Origin: Gemmatimonadales bacterium
GTDB taxonomy: Bacteria; Gemmatimonadota; Gemmatimonadetes; Gemmatimonadales; GWC2-71-9
Length of the DNA stretch: 64,000 bases
NCBI GenBank assembly: GCA_036279355.1
Contig: DASUJH010000004.1
Location: forward strand, 1 to 64,000
Direction of reading: 5' to 3'
Shown: piece by piece, positions 53,864 through 64,000 of the stretch
How the letters are laid out: each line of letters starts with the position of its first letter
Position numbering within the stretch: position 1 is the first letter of the stretch
Notes under the pieces: model-generated
Told to the model about the DNA's origin: nothing
Databases searched by the model: none
Seen by the model: only the letters and a program-made list of their open reading frames with translations
Translations under genes and position numbers: made by a program

Positions 53864-53899
53864 GTAAGTAGCCTCGCGGCCATGCTGCGACCTACTTAC
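53864..53899. repeat. 8-bp inverted repeat in the leader region of the glycan cluster
   Basis: GTAAGTAG (53864-53871) is mirrored exactly by CTACTTAC (53892-53899) with a 20-base loop that contains the start codon of the 22-residue ORF. It could be an operator or an RNA stem that occludes translation. Confidence 0.6.
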
Positions 53900-53950
53900 C
53901 TGCCGTGCGCGCCGCGCCGGCAGCCGTTCCTGATTCACGCATTACAGTGA
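53882..53950 (+). CDS. possible 22-residue leader peptide
   Basis: A candidate leaderless micro-ORF, ATG to TGA: MLRPTYLPCAPRRQPFLIHALQ. TAGCCT (53869-53874) ends seven bases before its ATG, the same spacing as at the other predicted leaderless genes. It precedes the first epimerase gene by 40 bases and the start lies in the loop of an inverted repeat. Short length means coding is unproven; a regulatory leader peptide is one explanation. Confidence 0.3.
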   Translation: MLRPTYLPCAPRRQPFLIHALQ

Positions 53951-53990
53951 GCCCGTTCCGACGTTCCGTATATCCCCCAGCCACACACGC

Positions 53991-55109
53991 ATGAGCAGCC
54001 AGGTTCTCATCACCGGCGGTGCCGGGTTCATCGGGTCTCATCTGGCCGACGCGCTTCTCGCGGCGGGCCATCGCGTGCGGGTGCTCGACAGCCTGATCCC
54101 GCAGGTGCACGGCCCCGATCGGCGGCGGCCGGCCTATCTCGATCGCGAGGTCGAGCTGCACGTGGGCGACGTGCGTGACGCCGCCGCGGTCCGCCGGGCC
54201 CTCGCCGGAGTCGAGGCCGTCTTTCACTTTGCCGCGATGGTGGGCGTCGGCCAGAGCATGTACGAGATCGCGCGCTACACCGAGGTGAACGGCGTCGGCA
54301 CCGCCACGCTGCTCGAGGCGCTGGCGGAGCACCCGGTCGAGCGGCTGGTCGTCGCCTCCAGCATGAGCCTGTACGGCGAGGGCCTCTACCGCCGCACCGA
54401 CGGCGCGCTCGTGCCCGGCGGCGAGCGGTCGCTGGCGCAGTTGCGCGCCGGCGACTGGGAGCTGCGCGACGAGCACGGCTGCCCCCTCGCGCCGGTGCCG
54501 ACGCCGGAATCGAAGCAGCCTGCGCTCGCCTCGGTGTACGCGCTGTCCAAGTTCGACCAGGAGCGACTCTGCCTCATGCTGGGCCGGGTGTACGGCGTGC
54601 CCACCGTCGCCCTCCGCTTCTTCAATGTGTACGGCTCCCGCCAGGCGCTCTCCAACCCCTACACCGGTGTGCTCGCGATCTTCGCCTCGCGGCTGCTCAA
54701 TGGCAATCGTCCGTCGATCTTCGAGGACGGGCTTCAGCGCCGCGATTTCGTGAGCGTGCGCGACGTCACCCAGGCGTGCTTGCTGGCGCTTCGGCGCGCG
54801 GAGGCGGTGGATCAGGTGTTCAACGTCGGGAGCGGACATTCCTACACCGTGCGCGAGGTGGCCGCGCGCATCGCCCGCGCGCTGGGCCAGCCCGCCGTCG
54901 AGCCCGAGATCACCGGCACTGCCCGCGCCGGCGACATCCGGCACTGCTTTGCCGACATTTCGGCGGCGCGCGCGCGGCTCGGCTACGAGCCCGAGGTGAG
55001 GCTCGATGCCGGGCTGGTGGAATTGTCCGCCTGGCTCGAGGGTCAGGTGGCCGAGGACCGCGTGGCCGAGATGCGCGCCGAGCTCACGGCGCGCGGGCTC
55101 ACGGTATGA
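53991..55109 (+). CDS. NAD-dependent nucleotide-sugar epimerase/dehydratase
   Basis: 372-residue extended SDR of the sugar-nucleotide epimerase group. Motifs: VLITGGAGFIGSHLADALL, HFAAMVGVGQSMY, catalytic YALSKFDQE (YxxxK), LRFFNVYGSRQALSNPYTGV and an insert around 145-175. It converts a nucleotide sugar at a carbon not readable from sequence. First large gene of the operon; its stop overlaps the next gene's ATG (ATGA). Start chosen as the ATG beside the Rossmann motif. Confidence 0.88.
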   Translation: MSSQVLITGGAGFIGSHLADALLAAGHRVRVLDSLIPQVHGPDRRRPAYLDREVELHVGDVRDAAAVRRALAGVEAVFHFAAMVGVGQSMYEIARYTEVNGVGTATLLEALAEHPVERLVVASSMSLYGEGLYRRTDGALVPGGERSLAQLRAGDWELRDEHGCPLAPVPTPESKQPALASVYALSKFDQERLCLMLGRVYGVPTVALRFFNVYGSRQALSNPYTGVLAIFASRLLNGNRPSIFEDGLQRRDFVSVRDVTQACLLALRRAEAVDQVFNVGSGHSYTVREVAARIARALGQPAVEPEITGTARAGDIRHCFADISAARARLGYEPEVRLDAGLVELSAWLEGQVAEDRVAEMRAELTARGLTV

Positions 55110-56299
55110 GCCGGGCCGCGCCCGGCCCCGTTCTCATCACCGGCGGCGCCGGCTTCATCGGCACCAATCTGTCGCACCGGCTGCTCGCCATGGGGCAGCC
55201 GGTCATCGTGTACGACAACCTTTCGCGCGCGGGCGTCGAGCGGAATCTCTGCTGGCTGCAGGTGACGCACCCCGGCCTGGTGGACGCGTGGGTGGCCGAT
55301 GTGCGCGACGCCGAGAGCCTCGGCGCCGCCGTGGCGAAGGCCTCGGCCGTATTCCACTTCGCGGCGCAGGTGGCCGTGACGACGAGCCTCGATGGTCCCA
55401 TCCACGACTTCGAGGTGAACGCGCGCGGCACGCTCAATCTGCTCGAGGCGATTCGGCGCGAGTCCACGCGGCCAGGGCGCACGCCGCCTCCGCTCGTCTT
55501 CACCTCGACCAACAAGGTGTACGGCGCGCTCGACGACGTGGCGCTCGAGCCCGGCGTCCGCCGCTACCGCCCCGCCGATCCCGAGCTCGGCACGCACGGC
55601 GTGAGCGAGGCGCGTCCGCTCGACTTCCACAGCCCGTACGGCTGCTCCAAGGGAGCGGCCGACCAGTACGTCCTCGACTACGCCCACACCTTCGGCCTGC
55701 CCGCGCTCGTGTTCCGCATGAGCTGCATCTACGGACCGCATCAGTTCGGCACCGAGGACCAGGGGTGGCTGGCGCACTTCCTCATCCGCGCGCTCGCCCG
55801 CGAGCCGATCACGCTGTACGGCGACGGCCGCCAGGTGCGCGACGTGCTGTTCGTCGAAGACCTGGTGGATGCGTTCCTCGCGGCCCGCGCGCGCGTGGAT
55901 CGATTGGCGGGCACCGCGTTCAACATCGGCGGCGGGCCGGAGAACACGGTGAGTCTGCTCGAGCTGATCGAGATGATCGGCGAGCTTACGGGCCGCACGC
56001 CGGAGGCGCACTTCGAGCCGTGGCGACCGGCGGACCAGCGCTACTACGTGTCGGATACGCGCCGCTTCGGCGAGGCGGCGGATTGGGCGCCGCGGGTCGA
56101 CGTGTCCGAAGGACTGGAGCGGCTGCACGCGTGGCTCAAGGACGAGCGGATTGCCGGCCGCGGTGCGCTGGCCGGAGGCGAGGGGAACGGCGCTCGGGCG
56201 GCGGCCGACCAGCCGGCGGGAGCGCGCGCGAACGGGTCACGGCCGCGCCCGGCCGGCGCTGGTCGGCAGCAGGAGGCCGCGGAGTGGAGACAGCCGTGA
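55106..56299 (+). CDS. CDP-paratose 2-epimerase-like sugar epimerase
   Basis: 397 residues. The Rossmann motif is LITGGAGFIGTNL, with VYDNLSRAGVERNLCWLQ, FEVNARGTLNLLEAIRRE and FTSTNKVYGAL, the last a hallmark of tyvelose/paratose-type 2-epimerases. Catalytic YGCSKGAADQY. A 50-residue Ala/Gly-rich tail beyond the fold is unusual. Overlaps both neighbours by four bases (ATGA and GTGA), so translation is tightly coupled. Real substrate unknown. Confidence 0.85.
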   Translation: MSRAAPGPVLITGGAGFIGTNLSHRLLAMGQPVIVYDNLSRAGVERNLCWLQVTHPGLVDAWVADVRDAESLGAAVAKASAVFHFAAQVAVTTSLDGPIHDFEVNARGTLNLLEAIRRESTRPGRTPPPLVFTSTNKVYGALDDVALEPGVRRYRPADPELGTHGVSEARPLDFHSPYGCSKGAADQYVLDYAHTFGLPALVFRMSCIYGPHQFGTEDQGWLAHFLIRALAREPITLYGDGRQVRDVLFVEDLVDAFLAARARVDRLAGTAFNIGGGPENTVSLLELIEMIGELTGRTPEAHFEPWRPADQRYYVSDTRRFGEAADWAPRVDVSEGLERLHAWLKDERIAGRGALAGGEGNGARAAADQPAGARANGSRPRPAGAGRQQEAAEWRQP

Positions 56300-57228
56300 G
56301 TGCGGCGGTGCTCGAGGCGCCGGGCCGCGCGCGCACCGTCGAAGTGGCGCGGCCCGAGCCGGGCGCGGGTCAGGTGCGCGTACGTCTCGAGGGTTGCGGC
56401 ATCTGCGGCTCGAATCTGCCGCTCTGGGAGGGGCGTCCGTGGTTCGAGTATCCGCGTGAGCCGGGCGCGCCGGGGCACGAGGGGTGGGGCGTGATCGACG
56501 CCGTGGGCGAGGAAGTCGATCGCTGGGCCACGGGCGACCGGGTGGCGTTCCTCTCGGACCACGCCTTTGCCGAGTACGACCTCGCCGCGGCCGACGCGCT
56601 GGCACGCATCCCCGAGCCGCTCGCCGGTCGCGCCTTTCCCGGCGAGGCGCTGGCCTGCGCGATGAACGTGTTCGCGCGCACGGGGATCGAGGCGGGGCAG
56701 CGCGTCGCAATCGTCGGCATCGGATTTCTCGGCGCGGTGCTGGTGCAGCTCGCGACCCGGGCCGGCGCGCGCGTGACCGCCGTCTCGCGGCGGCCATTCG
56801 CGCGCGACGTGGCGCGAGAGATGGGCGCGGCCGAGGCGGTGTCGCTCGAGCGCGCGGCGGACGCGTTCTCCGCCGGGCTGGCCGATTGCGCGATCGAGGT
56901 GACCGGCCAGCAGGCCCCGCTGGATCTCGCGGCCGAGCTGACCCGGGTCCGCGGCCGGCTCATCATTGCCGGCTATCACCAGGATGGCCCGCGCACCGTG
57001 AACATGCAGCTCTGGAACTGGCGCGGCCTCGACGTGGTGAACGCGCACGAGCGCGACCCGCGGGTGTATGTCGCCGGCATTCGCTCCGCGGCGGATGCGA
57101 TTGCGTCGGGCGCGCTCGACCCCGAGCCGCTCTATACCCATCGCGTCCCGCTCGACGCGCTCGGCCGCGGGCTCGAGCTGCTGCGCGAGCGGCCCGACGG
57201 ATTCCTGAAGGCGCTGGTGCTGACGTGA
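56296..57228 (+). CDS. zinc-type MDR dehydrogenase
   Basis: 310-residue medium-chain dehydrogenase. It has GCGICGSNLPLWEGRPWFE in the usual catalytic-zinc position, GHEGWGVIDAVGEEV, and the nucleotide-binding VAIVGIGFLGAVLVQLATRAGARV. The structural-zinc loop of four Cys is missing, as in some shorter MDR enzymes. Likely oxidises or reduces a sugar hydroxyl. The GTG start (56296) overlaps the previous stop and has GGAG six bases upstream; an in-frame GTG at 56284 is possible. Confidence 0.82.
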   Translation: MSAAVLEAPGRARTVEVARPEPGAGQVRVRLEGCGICGSNLPLWEGRPWFEYPREPGAPGHEGWGVIDAVGEEVDRWATGDRVAFLSDHAFAEYDLAAADALARIPEPLAGRAFPGEALACAMNVFARTGIEAGQRVAIVGIGFLGAVLVQLATRAGARVTAVSRRPFARDVAREMGAAEAVSLERAADAFSAGLADCAIEVTGQQAPLDLAAELTRVRGRLIIAGYHQDGPRTVNMQLWNWRGLDVVNAHERDPRVYVAGIRSAADAIASGALDPEPLYTHRVPLDALGRGLELLRERPDGFLKALVLT

Positions 57229-58298
57229 CCGCGCGGCCAATCCCGATGAACGAAATGCGCGGCGCCGCCGAGCCGGACCGCGCTCCGCGTGGCGCCCCCG
57301 TCCCGCGCCTCGGCTTCCTCGGCGTCGGCTGGATCGGCCGGCAGCGCATGGCGACGCTCGCCGCGAGCGGCGCCGGCCGGGTGTCCGCGATCGTCGATCC
57401 CTCTCCCGACCATCTCGCGGCCGCGCTCCGCGAGGCGCCCGGCGCGCGTGCGCTTGACTCGCTGGACGCGCTGCTCTCGACCGACCTGGACGGCATCGTC
57501 ATCGCAACACCGAGCGCGCTGCACGCCGGCCAGGCGGAAATGGCGCTGGCGCGAGGCAAGGCCGTGTTCTGCCAGAAGCCGCTCGCGCGCACCGCAGCGG
57601 AAACCCGCCGGGTGATCGACGCCGCGCGCGCGGCCGACCGGCTGCTCGCGGTGGACCTCTCGTACCGGCACACGGCCGCGATGCGCCACGTGAGCGCCGG
57701 TGTGCGCGCCGGTGAGATCGGACGAGTCTTCGCTGCCGAGCTGGTCTTTCACAATGCGTACGGCCCCGATCAGACCTGGTGCCACGACCCCGCGCTCGCC
57801 GGCGGCGGCTGTCTGATGGATCTCGGCGTGCACCTCGTCGACATGCTCTTCTCCACGCTCGAGGGCGCGCGCGTCGCGCACGTCGCGGCGCGACTCATCG
57901 CGGGCGGCGAGCCGCTCACCGATCGCGACCGCCAGGTGGAGGACTACGCCGAGGCACAGCTCACGCTCGAAGGCGGCGCGGTGGCGCGCCTCGCCTGCTC
58001 CTGGCGGCTCCCGCTGGGCCGCGGAGCCGAGATCGGCGCCACGTTCTACGGCACGCGCGGCGCGCTCGCCTTCCGCAACGTGGGCGGCTCGTTCTACGAC
58101 TTTGCCGCCGAGCGATATGACACCGCCGCGCGCCGGCTCCTGGTCGAGCCGCCCGACGAATGGGGCGGGCGCGCGCTGGTCGAGTGGTCTCGCCGGCTCG
58201 CCGCCGGCGAGCGGTTCGATCCGGCGGTGGACGAGCTGGTCGACGTCGCCGCCGCGCTCGACGCCGTCTACTCGGCGGGCATCCGGCCATGCCGGTGA
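57225..58298 (+). CDS. Gfo/Idh/MocA-family sugar dehydrogenase
   Basis: 357 residues. The N-terminal Rossmann fold has LGFLGVGWIGRQRMATLAASG and IATPSALHAGQAEMALARGKAVFCQKPLARTAAE with the conserved EKP-like segment (here QKP). The C-terminal part has GGGCLMDLGVHLVDML, carrying the catalytic Asp/His region. NAD(P)-dependent dehydrogenation of a sugar or sugar nucleotide. The GTG start overlaps the previous gene by four bases, and its 3' end overlaps the next by ten. Confidence 0.88.
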   Translation: MTARPIPMNEMRGAAEPDRAPRGAPVPRLGFLGVGWIGRQRMATLAASGAGRVSAIVDPSPDHLAAALREAPGARALDSLDALLSTDLDGIVIATPSALHAGQAEMALARGKAVFCQKPLARTAAETRRVIDAARAADRLLAVDLSYRHTAAMRHVSAGVRAGEIGRVFAAELVFHNAYGPDQTWCHDPALAGGGCLMDLGVHLVDMLFSTLEGARVAHVAARLIAGGEPLTDRDRQVEDYAEAQLTLEGGAVARLACSWRLPLGRGAEIGATFYGTRGALAFRNVGGSFYDFAAERYDTAARRLLVEPPDEWGGRALVEWSRRLAAGERFDPAVDELVDVAAALDAVYSAGIRPCR

Positions 58299-59524
58299 TG
58301 CTGCCCGTGGCCCGGCGCGTTCTCCTCACCGCCGATCCGATCGGCGGGGTCTGGACCTACGCCGTCGAGCTGGCGCGCGCGCTGAGCGGCGGCCTTGGCG
58401 GCGGAGCGCCGATGGAGGTGTGCGTCGCCGTGATGGGTGCGGCGCTCCGTCCCGATCAGCGGCGCGATCTGGCGGGCCTCCCGGGCGTGGAGGTGCGCGA
58501 GTGCCGCTACCGCCTCGAGTGGATGCCGGATGCCTGGGCGGACGTCGATGCCGCCGGCGACTGGCTCCTTTCTCTCGAGCGCGAGATCGCGCCCGACGTG
58601 ATCCACCTGAACCAGTTCGCGCCCGGGGTCCTGCCCTGGCGCGCGCCCCGGCTCGTGGTCGCCCACTCGTGCGTGTGCTCCTGGTGGCGGGCCGTGCATG
58701 GCGTCGCGGCGCCGCCGGAGTGGGACGAATATCGGCTCCGCCTGGGCGCGGGGCTCGCAGGCGCGGACCTCGTCATCGCGCCGACCCGCGCGATGCTCGC
58801 TGCGCTCGAGCGCGAGCACGGCCCGCTCGCCGCGGCCGCGGCGATTCCCAACGCGCGCGCGGCGCGCACGCCGCCGCTCGCGCGCGGCGCGCGCGCGCAG
58901 AAGGAGGAGCTGATCCTCGCGGTGGGCCGGCTCTGGGATGAAGCGAAGAACGTCGGCATGCTGGCGCAGCTCGCGCCCGAGCTCGAATGGCCGGTCTATC
59001 TCGCGGGCGATACGCAGCATCCGAGCGGGCGCGCGGCCGGATCGGATGGCGCGGAGCGTGACGGCGCCGCGCCCGATCGCACCGGGGCCGGCCACGCCGG
59101 CAGCGCCGCCCGCTTTTTGGGCCGACTCGACGCGCCGGTGCTCGCGCGCTGGCTCCGCCGCGCCGCCATCTACGCACTCCCCGCGCGTTACGAGCCGTTC
59201 GGCCTGTCCGTGCTCGAGGCGGCGCTCGCCGGCTGCGCGCTCGTGCTGGGCGACATCCCGAGCCAACGCGAGCTGTGGGATGGCGCCGCGCTCTTCGTGA
59301 AGCCGGATGACGCCGACACGCTCCGCGGCGTGCTGCGGACGCTCATGGTTCGCGGCGAGATGCGGCGCGCGCTGGCCGATGCGGCGCGCCGGCGGGCGCG
59401 CAGCTTTACGGTGGAGCGCTTCGCGATGGCGTATCGGGCGGCCTACGCGCGCGCCGCGGCACGGGCGTATCAGAGGCGCGGCGTTCCCGCGCCGCGCCCG
59501 GCGGAGGTCGCATGCGCGTCGTGA
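58289..59524 (+). CDS. glycosyltransferase family 4-like
   Basis: 411-residue GT-B transferase. N-terminal LLTADPIGGVWTYAVELARALSG and NQFAPGVLPWRAPRLVVAHSCVCSWW; C-terminal domain with EELILAVGRLWDEAKNV and the donor-binding ALPARYEPFGLSVLEAALAGCALVLGDIPSQREL (E.FGLxxLE). Adds a sugar to a growing glycan; donor and acceptor unknown. Begins ten bases before the Gfo/Idh/MocA stop and ends thirteen bases after the next gene's start. Confidence 0.88.
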   Translation: MPVMLPVARRVLLTADPIGGVWTYAVELARALSGGLGGGAPMEVCVAVMGAALRPDQRRDLAGLPGVEVRECRYRLEWMPDAWADVDAAGDWLLSLEREIAPDVIHLNQFAPGVLPWRAPRLVVAHSCVCSWWRAVHGVAAPPEWDEYRLRLGAGLAGADLVIAPTRAMLAALEREHGPLAAAAAIPNARAARTPPLARGARAQKEELILAVGRLWDEAKNVGMLAQLAPELEWPVYLAGDTQHPSGRAAGSDGAERDGAAPDRTGAGHAGSAARFLGRLDAPVLARWLRRAAIYALPARYEPFGLSVLEAALAGCALVLGDIPSQRELWDGAALFVKPDDADTLRGVLRTLMVRGEMRRALADAARRRARSFTVERFAMAYRAAYARAAARAYQRRGVPAPRPAEVACAS

Positions 59525-60624
59525 TCTTCTGCCACTCGCTCGTGTCCGACTGGAACCATGGCAACGCTCACTTCCTCCGCGGCGTCGTGCGCGAGCTGCT
59601 GGCGCGCGGCGTCGAGGTGCAGGTGTACGAGCCCCGGCACCCGTGGAGCGCGGAGAATCTGGTGAGCGATCACGGCCGCCGCGCGCTCACCGCGTTTCAT
59701 CGGGCATATCCCGGTCTCCGGAGCATTCGCTACGATCTGTCCGCGCTCGACCTCGATCGCGCACTCGACGGCGCCGACCTCGTGCTGGCGCACGAGTGGA
59801 ACGAGCACGAGCTGATCCGGCGCCTGGGCGAGCACCGCGCCGCGCACGGCGGCTATCGGCTGCTTTTTCACGACACCCACCATCGCTCCGTCACCGACGC
59901 CGATCAGATGGCCGCCTACCGCCTCGAGGCGTTCGACGGCATACTCGCCTTCGGGCGCGTGATCCGCGACCTCTATCTGGCCAATGGCTGGACCCGCCGC
60001 GCCTGGGTCTGGCACGAAGCAGCCGACACGCGGCGGTTCCGGCCGATGCCGCGCGTCGCGCCCGGCGGCGACGTCGTCTGGATCGGCAACTGGGGGGACG
60101 GGGAGCGCACGGACGAGCTGCGCGAATTTCTCATCGAGCCGTCGCGCGCGCTTGGGCTCCGCACGACGGTGTACGGCGTCCGCTACCCCCGTCCGGCGCG
60201 CGACGCGCTGGCCCGCGCGGGGATCGAGTATGCCGGGTGGCTGCCGAATTACGACGTGGCCCGCACGTTTGCCCGGTTCCGGGTGACGGTGCACGTGCCC
60301 CGGCGCCCCTACGCCAAGGCGCTGCCGGGGATTCCTACCATCCGCATGTTCGAGGCGCTCGCCTGCGGCATTCCGCTGGTTTCCGCGCCCTGGGATGATG
60401 CGGAAGACCTCTTCACGCCGGGCGAGGACTACCTCGTGGCGCGCGCCGGCAACGAGATGCGGGAGCAGCTCGGGCGGCTCCTGCTCGACCGGGAGCTCGC
60501 CGCGCGGATCGCCGGCAACGGCCTCCGCACCGTGCGCGCGCGGCATACCTGCGCCCACCGCGTGGACGAGCTGCTCCGGATCCACCGTGAGCTCGATGAC
60601 GGCGCGCAGGAGGCCGCCGCGTGA
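59512..60624 (+). CDS. CgeB-like glycosyltransferase (first of three)
   Basis: 370-residue GT-B fold. Start MRVVIFCHSLVSDWNHGNAHFLRGVVRELLARG, middle GYRLLFHDTHHRSVTDADQMAAY, and C-terminal PGIPTIRMFEALACGIPLVSAPWDDAEDLFTPGEDYLVA, the CgeB/DUF3880 pattern (RxFEAxAxGxxLxSxxxxxxxxLFxPGxE). Overlaps both neighbours. Related by sequence to the next two genes. The acceptor is unknown. Confidence 0.82.
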   Translation: MRVVIFCHSLVSDWNHGNAHFLRGVVRELLARGVEVQVYEPRHPWSAENLVSDHGRRALTAFHRAYPGLRSIRYDLSALDLDRALDGADLVLAHEWNEHELIRRLGEHRAAHGGYRLLFHDTHHRSVTDADQMAAYRLEAFDGILAFGRVIRDLYLANGWTRRAWVWHEAADTRRFRPMPRVAPGGDVVWIGNWGDGERTDELREFLIEPSRALGLRTTVYGVRYPRPARDALARAGIEYAGWLPNYDVARTFARFRVTVHVPRRPYAKALPGIPTIRMFEALACGIPLVSAPWDDAEDLFTPGEDYLVARAGNEMREQLGRLLLDRELAARIAGNGLRTVRARHTCAHRVDELLRIHRELDDGAQEAAA

Positions 60625-61706
60625 GCCCCGGCATGGACGTCGCCTTCTTCGGCTCGAGCCTCGTCTCGGCGTACTGGAACGGCGCCGCGACCTACTACCG
60701 CGGCGTCGTGCGCGCGCTCGCGGCGCGCGGACATCGCGTCACCTTCTACGAGCCCGACGCATACGGCCGCCAGCAGCACCGCGACATCCCCGACCCCGAC
60801 TGGGCGCGCGTCGTGGTGTACGACGGCGCGTCGGAGGACGCCGCACTTGCGGCGCTCGAGAGCGCCCGCGGCGCGGACCTCCTCGTGAAAGCCAGCGGGG
60901 TCGGCGTCTTCGACGAGCTGCTGGAGCGCGAGGTGCTCGCGCTGGCGGGGGCCGACACGCTGGTCGCCTTCTGGGACGTGGATGCGCCAGCGACGCTCGA
61001 GCGTCTCGAGCGCAATGCCGCCGATCCGTTCCACGCGCTCGTGCCCCGCTACGACCTCGTGCTCACCTACGGCGGCGGCGATCCGGTGGTGGCGGCCTAT
61101 CGTGCGCTCGGCGCGCGCGAGTGCGTGCCGGTGTACAACGCGCTCGATCCCGAAACCCATCATCCCGTTCCGCCTGAGCCCCGCTTTGCCGCCGACCTCG
61201 CCTTTCTCGGCAACCGCCTGCCGGACCGCGAGGCGCGGGTCGACGAATTTTTCCTCGCGGCGGCCCGACGGCTCCCGGCGCGCCGATTCCTGCTCGGCGG
61301 GAACGGCTGGCAGGACAAGCCGCTGCCCGAGAACGTGCGCAACGCCGGCCACGTGTACACCCACGAGCACAACGCCTTCAATTGCTCGCCGCGCGCGGTG
61401 CTCAACGTGAACCGCGCGAGCATGGCGCGCTACGGCTTCTCGCCGCCCACGCGGGTGTTCGAGGCGGCGGGCGCCGCCGCGTGCCTCCTGACCGACGCGT
61501 GGGAAGGTATCGAGTTGTTCCTCGAGCCCGGCGCCGAGGTGCTCGTGGTGCACGACGGCGCCGAGGTGGCCGAACGGCTCGAGGCGCTATCGCCAGCCGA
61601 GGCGCGCGCGCTGGGCAGCGCGGCGCGCGCCCGCGTCCTCGCCGAGCACACCTACGCCCACCGCGCCGCACAGGTCGAGGCGCTGCTCGGGAGCACGGTC
61701 CGATGA
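60621..61706 (+). CDS. CgeB-like glycosyltransferase (second of three)
   Basis: 361 residues with the same architecture: DVAFFGSSLVSAYWNGAATYYRGVVRALAARG, middle YDLVLTYGGGDPVVAAYRAL, C-terminal MARYGFSPPTRVFEAAGAAACLLTDAWEGIELFLEPGAE. The latter matches spore-coat-type CgeB glycosyltransferases closely. The GTG start overlaps the previous stop (GTGA) and the stop overlaps the next ATG (ATGA). Confidence 0.85.
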   Translation: MSPGMDVAFFGSSLVSAYWNGAATYYRGVVRALAARGHRVTFYEPDAYGRQQHRDIPDPDWARVVVYDGASEDAALAALESARGADLLVKASGVGVFDELLEREVLALAGADTLVAFWDVDAPATLERLERNAADPFHALVPRYDLVLTYGGGDPVVAAYRALGARECVPVYNALDPETHHPVPPEPRFAADLAFLGNRLPDREARVDEFFLAAARRLPARRFLLGGNGWQDKPLPENVRNAGHVYTHEHNAFNCSPRAVLNVNRASMARYGFSPPTRVFEAAGAAACLLTDAWEGIELFLEPGAEVLVVHDGAEVAERLEALSPAEARALGSAARARVLAEHTYAHRAAQVEALLGSTVR

Positions 61707-62818
61707 GCCCGGCGCGGCTCCGGATCGTCATCCTCGGGCTCTCGATCACGTCGAGCTGGGGCAACGGGCACGCCACCACGTACCGCGGCCTCGTGCGCGG
61801 GCTTTCGGCGCGGGGCCACGACGTCCTGTTTCTCGAGCGCGACCTCGAGTGGTACGCCGACAACCGCGACCTCCCCGACCCCCCCTACGGCCGCACCGAG
61901 CTGTACGCCAATTTCGGCGAGCTTCGGGCCCACTACGCCGACCAGGTGCGCGCGGCCGATCTCGTCGTGGTCGGCTCCTTCGTGCCGCAGGGGGCGACCA
62001 TCGGCCGGTGGGTGACTCGAATCGCACGCGGCGTCACGGCATTCTACGACATCGACACGCCGGTGACGCTCGCACGGCTCGCCGAGCGGCGCGCCGGCTA
62101 CATCACGGCCGAGCTGATCCGCGCGTACGACCTCTACCTCTCGTTTACCGGCGGGCCCACGCTCGAGCGCCTGCAGGTGGAGTACGGCGCGCGCGCGGCG
62201 CTGCCGCTCTACTGCTCGGTGGATGCAACCCAGTACTACCCCGACCCCATGCCCCATCGCTGGGACCTGGGCTATATGGGCACGTACAGCGGGGACCGTC
62301 AGCCGGCGCTGGACCGCCTGCTGCTCGAGCCCGCGCGCCGGTGGAACGCGGGCCGGTTCGTCGTCGCGGGGCCGCAGTATCCCGACGGAATCGCGTGGCC
62401 GCGCAACGTGCGCCGGGTGCAGCATCTGCCGCCGTCGCGGCATCGCCGGTTCTACAACGCACAGCGCTTCACGCTCAACGTCACCCGGGCCCATATGGTG
62501 CGCGCCGGGTGGTCGCCCAGCGTGCGGCTGTTCGAGGCGGCGGCGTGCGGCACGCCGATCGTGAGTGACGCGTGGCCCGGTCTCGATACCCTCTTCAAGC
62601 CGGACGCCGAGATCTATCTCGCCCGCGACGCCGGCGACGCGCTGGACATCGTCCGCGAGACGTCCGAGCCGGCGCGGCGCCGGGTCGGCGCGGCGGCGCG
62701 CGCCCGCGTGCTGGCGCAACACACCGCCGGCCACCGTGCGGCCGAGCTCGAATCGTACGCGCTCGAGCGACTGGGCCGCCCCGCCCGTGCGATTGCGACC
62801 GCGGGGCCGGCGTCATGA
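61703..62818 (+). CDS. CgeB-like glycosyltransferase (third of three)
   Basis: 371 residues: IVILGLSITSSWGNGHATTYRGLVRGLSARGHDVLFLERD, middle YDLYLSFTGGPTLERLQVEYG, C-terminal WSPSVRLFEAAACGTPIVSDAWPGLDTLFKPDAE. It shares its order of motifs with the preceding two genes, consistent with tandem duplication. Overlaps both neighbours by four bases (ATGA each side). Confidence 0.85.
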   Translation: MSPARLRIVILGLSITSSWGNGHATTYRGLVRGLSARGHDVLFLERDLEWYADNRDLPDPPYGRTELYANFGELRAHYADQVRAADLVVVGSFVPQGATIGRWVTRIARGVTAFYDIDTPVTLARLAERRAGYITAELIRAYDLYLSFTGGPTLERLQVEYGARAALPLYCSVDATQYYPDPMPHRWDLGYMGTYSGDRQPALDRLLLEPARRWNAGRFVVAGPQYPDGIAWPRNVRRVQHLPPSRHRRFYNAQRFTLNVTRAHMVRAGWSPSVRLFEAAACGTPIVSDAWPGLDTLFKPDAEIYLARDAGDALDIVRETSEPARRRVGAAARARVLAQHTAGHRAAELESYALERLGRPARAIATAGPAS

Positions 62819-63588
62819 GCACCCGCCTCGAGACCATCCGCTCGCTCGGGCCCTGGTTCCACAACCTCCATCTCCCCGACGGAGTCGAGACCGCGCCCGA
62901 TCATTTCCTGGGCGACTTTCCCAGCTACAAATGGGATGTCGTCGCCTCGCTCGTGCCGGGAGACCTGCACGGCTGGCGCGCGCTCGACATCGGCTGCAAC
63001 GCGGGCTTCTACTCGTTCGAGCTGGCCCGCCGGGGCGCCTCCGTCACCGGCATCGACGTGGACCCGCACTACCTGCGGCAGGCGGAGTGGGCGGCGCGCG
63101 AGTACGGCCTCGAGCGCGCGATCGAGTTCCGCCGGATGCAGGTGTACGACCTGGCCCGCGAGCGCGAGCACTACGACCTCGTGCTCTTCATGGGCGTCCT
63201 GTATCACCTCCGCTATCCGCTGCTCGGCCTCGACCTCGTGGCCCGGCGGGTGCGCCGGCTGCTCGTGTTCCAGACGCTCACGATTCCGGAGACCGAGCGC
63301 GCGCCGGCGAGCGCGGATCCCGGGCTCGACGATCGCGAGGCGCTCCGCGCGCCGGGCTGGCCCGCGATGGCGTTCGTCGAGCAGCGCCTGGTGGGCGACC
63401 CGACCAACTGGTGGGTGCCGAACGAGGCCGGTGTGGAGGCGATGCTCCGCTCGAGCGGGCTGCGCATCGTCCGGCGCCCCGGCCACGAGATCTGGCTCTG
63501 CGAGCCGGCGGCGCCGAATGCGCCCGACGGGCCACCATACGACATCACCCCCGAGCTCCTCGCCGCCACGGGACAGCGCTGGGGCTGA
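62815..63588 (+). CDS. SAM-dependent methyltransferase (CmoB-like fold)
   Basis: 257 residues. Motif I ALDIGCNAGFYSFELARRGASVTGIDVD, then YDLVLFMGVLYHLRYPLLGLD; N-terminal WFHNLHLPDGVETAPDHFLGDFPSYKWD resembles CmoB-type enzymes. Probably methylates the glycan or a nucleotide sugar in this operon. The ATG overlaps the preceding stop. It ends 21 bases before the last partial gene. Confidence 0.88.
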   Translation: MSTRLETIRSLGPWFHNLHLPDGVETAPDHFLGDFPSYKWDVVASLVPGDLHGWRALDIGCNAGFYSFELARRGASVTGIDVDPHYLRQAEWAAREYGLERAIEFRRMQVYDLAREREHYDLVLFMGVLYHLRYPLLGLDLVARRVRRLLVFQTLTIPETERAPASADPGLDDREALRAPGWPAMAFVEQRLVGDPTNWWVPNEAGVEAMLRSSGLRIVRRPGHEIWLCEPAAPNAPDGPPYDITPELLAATGQRWG

Positions 63589-63609
63589 CGGCGAGCCGGG
63601 CTCGACATC

Positions 63610-64000
63610 ATGATCGTCTACCGGAACGAGACGCGGTGCACGGCGTCGCACGCGGCGCTGGCCGAGCTGCGGGAGTCGCTCGGCTCCGCGCGCAGTCTTG
63701 GAGCCGGTCCGGCGCGCTATGACCGGTTGATCGCGCTGCTCATCGATGGGGGCGCGCTCGAGTCCGCCGTGGCCGACGCACTCTGCCCCGAAATCGACCG
63801 GGTGCTGCCGCCGATGGCCGCACTCCATCGTGTGACCCGCGCGCTGGCGGGCGCGGCATGGTGCGCGTGGCGCGGCATCGAACACGACGTGCGCGGGCAC
63901 CTCGACCACGCCGCCGACGCGCTCTCCGGGCTCGAGCGTGCCGAGCTGCCGAGCGAAGTTGCGCTCGCGGTGCCGGAGGGGTTCGCGCACTATGCGGTGT
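63610..64000 (+). CDS. unknown protein, 3' end beyond window
   Basis: An open reading frame from the ATG at 63610 to the window edge, about 130 residues, with no stop. It reads MIVYRNETRCTASHAALAEL at the start, then Ala/Leu-rich helices such as PARYDRLIALLIDGGALESAVADALCPEIDRVLPPMAALHRVTRALAGAAWCAWRG, ending with LPSEVALAVPEGFAHYAV. I do not recognise a family. Codon use matches the neighbours. It follows the methyltransferase by 21 bases, so it belongs to the same operon. Confidence 0.6.
   Translation, partial: MIVYRNETRCTASHAALAELRESLGSARSLGAGPARYDRLIALLIDGGALESAVADALCPEIDRVLPPMAALHRVTRALAGAAWCAWRGIEHDVRGHLDHAADALSGLERAELPSEVALAVPEGFAHYAV

Follow-up and report, generated by a model that had tools for sequence, protein, structure and literature searches.

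The described systems closest to the locus reported here are the CDP-tyvelose/paratose 2-epimerases (TyvE), the glycosidase PslG of the Psl exopolysaccharide pathway, and the gene neighbourhoods of the protein families TIGR04290 and TIGR04295 in Azospirillum, Bradyrhizobium, Sinorhizobium and Ramlibacter. Structures of TyvE from Salmonella (1orr) and Thermodesulfatator (TaTyvE, 9rl0) have been solved, and roles have been assigned to its catalytic triad, its TNK segment and a glutamine that contacts the sugar, with Tyr203 of TaTyvE closing over the cytosine (PMC13098431). PslG, a GH39 enzyme, has likewise been solved (4zn2, 5bx9). TIGR04295 is a B12-radical-SAM family, which we take to be the one labelled 'rhizo-twelve'. 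A search of 5.4 million open papers found none naming the system, and searching with the locus tags of the Sinorhizobium meliloti pSymB region that holds a copy returned nothing on these genes. Here we analyse a copy in a 64,000-nucleotide stretch of DNA from a Gemmatimonadales bacterium (the window).

Results

Nine tightly coupled plus-strand genes, A to I, occupy positions 53991-63588 (Table 1). All the genes named in the preliminary description are present on that strand in the order it gave; the interval it proposed opens at 53882, about 110 bases ahead of the first gene. Its series of overlaps (4, 4, 4, 10, 13, 4, 4 and 4 bases) is reproduced when D starts at 57225 and E at 58289, and depends on those choices: D could begin at GTG 57225 (357 aa) or at ATG 57246 (350 aa), the latter leaving 17 bases between C and D in place of the third overlap, and with E starting later, at 58295 or 58298, the fourth falls to 4 or 1. 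The unknown protein that it had joined by overlap, J, is in fact separate, its ATG lying 21 bases after the stop of I. The cluster does continue past 64000, one of the two possibilities raised before, with the remainder of J (ending at 65922) and then K to O up to 71352; O, just outside the window, is a candidate for the ABC gene sought downstream. Neither membrane segments nor signal peptides were convincingly predicted in A to N, where C and J each gave a single marginal match.

Table 1. Genes of the locus on contig C4; for K to O, which lie beyond the window, its numbering is continued past 64000.
Gene	Product	Position	Strand	Evidence
A	Extended-SDR NDP-sugar epimerase, GalE/WbpP-like, 372 aa	53991-55109	+	GGAGFIG and YALSK motifs; C4-epimerase-type nearest solved structures
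B	CDP-tyvelose/paratose 2-epimerase-like SDR, 397 aa	55106-56299	+	1orr 1.5e-82, 9rl0 2.7e-82; TNK, YGCSK, EDQGW
C	Medium-chain zinc-type dehydrogenase (MDR), 310 aa	56296-57228	+	PF08240, PF00107
D	Gfo/Idh/MocA oxidoreductase	57225-58298	+	PF01408, PF22725
E	GT4-type glycosyltransferase	58298-59524	+	PF13439, PF13692, PF00534
F	CgeB-like glycosyltransferase 1	59512-60624	+	PF13524 4e-39
G	CgeB-like glycosyltransferase 2	60621-61706	+	PF13524 1e-41; tree
H	CgeB-like glycosyltransferase 3	61703-62818	+	PF13524 2e-41
I	TIGR04290-family SAM methyltransferase, 257 aa	62815-63588	+	340.3 bits, cut-off 300
J	770-aa protein, running past 64000	63610-65922	+	
K	Circularly permuted PslG/GH39-like barrel	65910-66797	-	
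L	Sugar nucleotidyltransferase-like	66808-67629	-	
M	Fourth CgeB-like glycosyltransferase	67630-68709	-	
N	Histidine phosphatase	68831-69430	+	
O	MsbA-like ABC exporter candidate	69670-71352	+	

When gene orders in relatives were counted by tblastn, A to I stood in one order and on one strand in 51 of the 108 neighbourhoods examined, many of the other loci ending at a contig edge or at the edge of the examined neighbourhood. Among 80 named loci, 43 have this order and 21 more are collinear up to such an edge; E, F, G and H follow one another in 79 of the 108. G is one of the best-conserved proteins here, with relatives in about 12 phyla. The search for the same order in other genomes shows it recurring across many phyla, far beyond chance. 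The earlier proposal of a coordinated glycan operon is supported. The locus is a local copy of a conserved glycan system whose order is kept in about a dozen phyla, and it contains the conserved series of two epimerases, C and D (or a radical-SAM gene), a GT4 gene and three CgeB-like genes, with the methyltransferase. In nine of nine Gemmatimonadota genomes whose methyltransferase locus comprises only the fourth CgeB-like gene, the NTP-transferase, the methyltransferase and the glycosidase, B and G lie on another contig or far off, so that parts of the system co-occur without being neighbours. Plasmid-borne copies are found in S. meliloti (pSymB), Azospirillum and others. Stress-type genes (DUF1003, manganese catalase, Ku/LigD and treZ) are frequent neighbours of the rhizobial copies. 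Control of these copies by the general stress response was nevertheless considered and rejected, since their surroundings show no enrichment of the EcfG/RpoE2-type motif GGAAC-N15-18-CGTT.

One epimerase had been described as CDP-paratose-type, and B is indeed of the CDP-paratose/tyvelose 2-epimerase type: the next best structure after the two TyvE entries scores 3e-35, and alignment and motifs show that B keeps the catalytic triad, the TNK segment and the glutamine that contacts the sugar. A glutamate occupies the position of Tyr203, as in 44 of 44 operon-linked B proteins in which the loop was found, and VAM is changed to VAV in 41 of 41. Judged from its sequence, B belongs to a TyvE-like C2-epimerase subfamily with an altered nucleobase lid. 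The deoxy sugar that had been suggested along with this enzyme finds no support. The family of B inverts C2, no CDP-3,6-dideoxyhexose gene, including CDP-glucose 4,6-dehydratase, is present in 53991-71352, and models of that pathway show sub-cut-off similarity only (46 and 69 bits against 278); the best scores with CDP- and dTDP-4,6-dehydratase models fall far below cut-off.

The methyltransferase I had been labelled CmoB-like. It passes the curated TIGR04290 cut-off and falls well below those of CmoB (62 bits against 275 for TIGR00452; 61 against 209 for NF011650); the likeness to CmoB is a distant Rossmann methyltransferase similarity. TIGR04290 matched none of 14 control genomes.

For D, the best curated model is iolG (98 bits, below cut-off), and among solved structures it lies closest to 1,5-anhydrofructose reductase and other dehydrogenases of sugars, not to inositol dehydrogenases. 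In Azospirillum, Bradyrhizobium (two plasmids), Tistrella and Geminicoccaceae, a TIGR04295 gene separates B (or A) from E, and no C or D is nearby; the dehydrogenase pair has been swapped for a B12-radical-SAM enzyme in the same operon slot. The resemblance of D to sugar-tailoring dehydrogenases, and the known link of CgeB-type transferases with the Bacillus spore surface, would suit protein glycosylation or the decoration of a larger secondary metabolite. We consider this rather unlikely, because genes for a substrate protein, a PKS/NRPS or an aminotransferase were not noticed as recurrent in the 108 neighbourhoods, and linkage to NTP-transferase and inositol-3-phosphate synthase (INO1) genes points to de novo synthesis of a small molecule.

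K is about 295 aa long, lacks a signal peptide and has PslG as its closest solved relative. Sequence profiles detect the two barrel halves and the two Glu motifs of catalytic type (WNEPN and TE.G), E10 and E112 are invariant across 19 alignment rows, and the predicted model is an eight-stranded barrel (pLDDT 85, pTM 0.86). The halves stand in permuted order relative to PslG and to 29 of 29 fusion proteins, and the canonical GH39/PslG strand order is lacking. On profile evidence, K is a circularly permuted version of a PslG/GH39-like barrel, which in other loci occurs in normal order as a fusion with B. Foldseek with the K model returned generic barrels only, as expected of an order-dependent aligner given a permuted fold, and the permutation was settled by the profiles. 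The fusion of a GH domain to B in 29 other loci suggests that the glycosidase acts alongside an NDP-sugar epimerase, in the cytosol. K occurs in 4 of 102 genomes of the host's family, and the same four carry TIGR04290.

No flippase or polymerase had been seen in the cluster, and a search of the genome's contigs agrees: matches to PF01943 and PF04932 are absent from C4, the three Wzx-type and three Wzy-type matches lying on C13, C20 and C28. Those genes on other contigs could serve a locus that builds the repeat unit of a capsule, exopolysaccharide or LPS, a reading also favoured by the several glycosyltransferases and NDP-sugar epimerases, by the kinship of K with an enzyme of the Psl pathway and by pyruvyl transferase genes that join in 8 loci. 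It nevertheless seems to us quite improbable, since no Wzx/Wzy-family gene was noticed as recurrent around the relatives, no phosphoglycosyltransferase initiator was found, the K-B fusion places the glycosidase in the cytosol, and order and content are fixed over about 12 phyla, unlike those of variable capsule loci. The downstream region holds no characterised capsule or LPS pathway. With no local flippase or polymerase, a small glycoside, which the preliminary description had offered, is the better reading.

In J, choline-kinase-fold and HAD-IIIA domains are joined to an N-terminal half that is unclassified and carries a PRTase-like motif (VVDEGPGLSGSS); Pfam scans of the first 590 residues gave no match in any of 10 relatives. 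At least 17 loci from four classes have INO1 next to the operon (15 of the 108-locus survey, Bradyrhizobium p195_1 and Azospirillum lipoferum), which is only about one locus in seven; it lies on another contig (C24) in the host and is common anyway, being present in 6 of 14 control genomes. O scores 426 bits against the MsbA model, under its cut-off, accompanies the system in 9 of 108 loci, and is the gene immediately after I in Opitutus and in one Planctomycete. Lipids are the usual cargo of MsbA-like exporters; should O be part of the system, the product may be attached to a lipid. This exporter and the INO1 linkage are what one would expect if the operon made the head group of a glycolipid, such as an inositol lipid carrying sugars, and O flipped it across the membrane. 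We judge that unlikely: O is absent from most loci, A to N look soluble, and the recurrent genes include no acyltransferase, lipid-phosphate transferase or membrane-bound glycosyltransferase.

Discussion

On balance we lean towards a small, defined, methylated oligoglycoside, made in the cytosol on a soluble, probably inositol-type acceptor. The conserved order, the co-occurring parts, the K-B fusion, the soluble look of A to N, the INO1 linkage, the TIGR04295 swap and the lack of Wzx/Wzy genes on C4 all count for this oligoglycoside; the sparseness of the INO1 linkage and the commonness of INO1, the structural neighbours of D and the MsbA-like character of O count against it.

We envision a scenario in which L activates a sugar phosphate and the C4-type and C2-type epimerases A and B set the configuration of the NDP-sugar. 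C and D would jointly oxidise and re-reduce one centre of a sugar or cyclitol, with epimerisation as the net result; a single B12-radical-SAM enzyme would do this in some proteobacteria and probably in the only cyanobacterial locus of the survey. E could then attach the first sugar to a soluble acceptor, for which an inositol derivative is the likeliest candidate; further sugars would be added in fixed order by F, G, H and M, and I would methylate. K, as a cytosolic retaining-type glycosidase, may trim or transglycosylate, N and the HAD part of J could remove phosphates, and O may export the product. More tentatively, it is possible that the system makes an undescribed but widely conserved class of bacterial small molecules, methylated cyclitol oligoglycosides, using a cytosolic permuted clan GH-A glycosidase and an epimerisation that evolved twice, as a dehydrogenase pair or as a B12-radical-SAM enzyme.

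That nine enzymes keep their gene order in about 12 phyla, with soil, plant-associated and desert bacteria among the carriers, implies a specific useful product, and the plasmid-borne copies in S. meliloti, Azospirillum and others offer tractable hosts for finding it. The exchange of C and D for a radical-SAM enzyme narrows what that step has to do. The permuted K and the relatives of canonical order found in operons of this kind are a clean natural experiment in enzyme topology.

Compared with known systems, B is homologous to TyvE over its whole length and keeps the equivalents of Tyr164/Lys168 and Gln205 as well as the TNK segment, whereas the lid tyrosine is replaced by glutamate and the CDP-3,6-dideoxyhexose genes of the TyvE context do not accompany it. 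K shares its catalytic-type Glu motifs and barrel halves with PslG but has the halves reversed, in a protein of about 295 aa without signal peptide. The TIGR04290/TIGR04295 neighbourhoods share with this locus an above-cut-off methyltransferase family and the series of epimerase, GT4 and three CgeB-like genes. Unlike in those neighbourhoods, here C and D fill the TIGR04295 slot, INO1 and UXS are unlinked, J is fused to a HAD domain, and K, L and M form a separate minus-strand block.

Organization and conservation of the gene system

The nine genes A to I form a real, conserved biosynthetic system that is apparently unpublished, as far as our literature search goes. The data establish its architecture and conservation, together with the permutation of K and the replacement of C and D described below; its chemistry is inferred. 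The gene overlaps listed in the preliminary description were reproduced, with the third and fourth varying with the start codon chosen for D and E; its CmoB-like label for the methyltransferase I was rejected, as the protein scores 340 bits against TIGR04290 (cut-off 300) and 62 against the CmoB model. TIGR04290 is present in 25 of the phylum's 395 genomes and absent from all 14 well-known control genomes. Scanning 84,980 species genomes yielded 585 relatives, the best 80 of which were retained. Among the 80 named loci the set is complete in 43, and in 21 more it is collinear up to the end of the available sequence. With all sources pooled, A to I are complete and collinear in 51 of 108 neighbourhoods and the transferase block E-F-G-H is collinear in 79. 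In a tree of the transferase G, which covers 12 phylum labels, the window's protein clusters with Gemmatimonadota, Bacteroidota form one group and Pseudomonadota are split, a pattern that would fit an old system with some transfer, the latter not being proved by the tree.

The suggestion that the cluster might run past 64000 was borne out when the sequence was extended on contig C4 (117 kb in length, the window covering its first 64 kb), where genes J to O were found. The genes past O, including those for thymidine kinase, dephospho-CoA kinase and glycine-cleavage proteins, seem from translations inspected by eye to be unrelated to glycans. Wzx- and Wzy-family genes, looked for across the contigs of the genome, gave matches on C13, C20 and C28 only and none on C4.

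Genes of the system on contig C4 (positions past 64000 continue the window numbering)
Gene	Position	Strand	Description
A to I	53991-63588	+	nine genes
A, B		+	two extended-SDR epimerases
C		+	MDR dehydrogenase
D		+	Gfo/Idh/MocA dehydrogenase
E		+	GT4 transferase
F, G, H		+	three PF13524 (CgeB-like) transferases
I		+	methyltransferase, TIGR04290
J	63610-65922, starting 21 bases after I		the preliminary description's unknown protein
K, L, M	65910-68709	-	convergent to J; permuted PslG/GH39-like barrel, sugar nucleotidyltransferase-like protein, fourth CgeB-like transferase (CgeB4)
N	after the K-L-M block		histidine phosphatase
O	with N, after the K-L-M block		MsbA-like ABC protein

J combines several parts in one protein. 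A Pfam scan of residues 1-590 gave nothing in each of 10 relatives, leaving the N-terminal half unclassified; a PRTase-like motif in the middle, VVDEGPGLSGSS, was spotted by eye only and is unsupported by any search; the second half adopts a choline-kinase fold in a structure model (pLDDT 88); and the last 170 residues are a HAD-IIIA domain, which most relatives either encode as a gene of its own or show no sign of in the neighbourhood.

K, L and M are part of the system, as two distributions argue. Nine genomes from a different family within the class have a methyltransferase locus made up of M-L-I-K-type genes only, or of fragments of that set at contig ends, and relatives of G and B lie elsewhere in all nine. 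Within the window's own family, four of 102 genomes have K, and these are the four with TIGR04290. The loci L048-L051 and L066 are reduced to CgeB4, nucleotidyltransferase, methyltransferase and permuted glycosidase, the A-H part being located elsewhere in the same genomes.

Gene replacement and the putative acceptor

Directly upstream of E, in the slot usually held by C and D, a B12-radical-SAM protein of family TIGR04295 is found in the two Azospirillum species examined, on two Bradyrhizobium plasmids, in Tistrella, in one Geminicoccaceae bacterium and in one cyanobacterium (L148, L153, L156, L157, L158, L159, L067). Neither C nor D occurs in these stretches, of which the cyanobacterial one ends short upstream; C and D are present, and TIGR04295 absent, in related loci of rhizobia, Paracoccus and Roseomonas, and no locus viewed holds both. 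This shared slot and mutually exclusive occurrence suggest, from few independent cases, that C plus D and TIGR04295 do the same chemical task, most simply the epimerisation of one centre.

Inositol-3-phosphate synthase (INO1) is encoded beside the operon in 15 loci from Alpha-, Beta- and Gammaproteobacteria and Desulfuromonadales and in two further loci, and histidine phosphatase N occurs in 23 of 108. On these grounds an acceptor of inositol type is our best, if tentative, guess. In this genome INO1 lies on a contig other than C4.

Other neighbours recur. Near the system in L073-L077, L091, L150 and L155, a polysaccharide pyruvyl transferase invariably has a coenzyme-F420-hydrogenase-beta-like protein as its direct neighbour. 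Plasmid copies (L150, L153, L155, L156, L157, L159) sit amid stress-type genes (DUF1003, manganese catalase, Ku/LigD, treZ, BON domain); a test of three copies (L148, L149, L151) showed no enrichment of an EcfG-type promoter motif. Both Bradyrhizobium copies (L153, L156) have a phosphopentomutase-annotated gene inserted between K and A.

Relation of B and K to known enzymes

B matches CDP-tyvelose 2-epimerases at 1e-82, with the next family far behind at 3e-35. The catalytic residues of the Thermodesulfatator enzyme TaTyvE and the residue that closes over its cytosine have been described (PMC13098431). B keeps the former, but at the cytosine-closing position all 44 scored relatives have Glu, and 41 of 41 have VAV in place of VAM. 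Judged from these residues, B is likely a C2 epimerase, and its nucleotide may be other than CDP.

In 29 loci B has a normal-order glycosidase domain fused ahead of it, a link that ties the glycosidase to a cytosolic NDP-sugar enzyme. Residues 3 to ~190 of K align from ~107-136 onward of this domain in all 29 (in one from 41, the gene call being truncated), and K ~193-293 aligns with its first ~100 residues, one truncated gene call giving a short second match only. The permutation can be seen at 65910-66797 of C4, just past the window, and the fusion at L094:1357-3411. Of the two forms, the permuted one occurs in 35 loci and the normal one in 37, and no single fetched stretch holds both. Residues E10 and E112 of K are invariant, and its structure model has eight barrel strands (pLDDT 85, pTM 0.86). 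The literature searched, which is incomplete in its coverage, yielded no earlier description of a permutation of this kind within the enzyme clan. A profile of K against the PDB finds PslG (GH39; E 1.7e-7) with the halves swapped likewise, K 193-293 matching 17-128 and 2-166 matching 131-303. K is thus a circular permutation of a PslG/GH39-like barrel, and its form is presumably the derived state, since PslG has the normal order.
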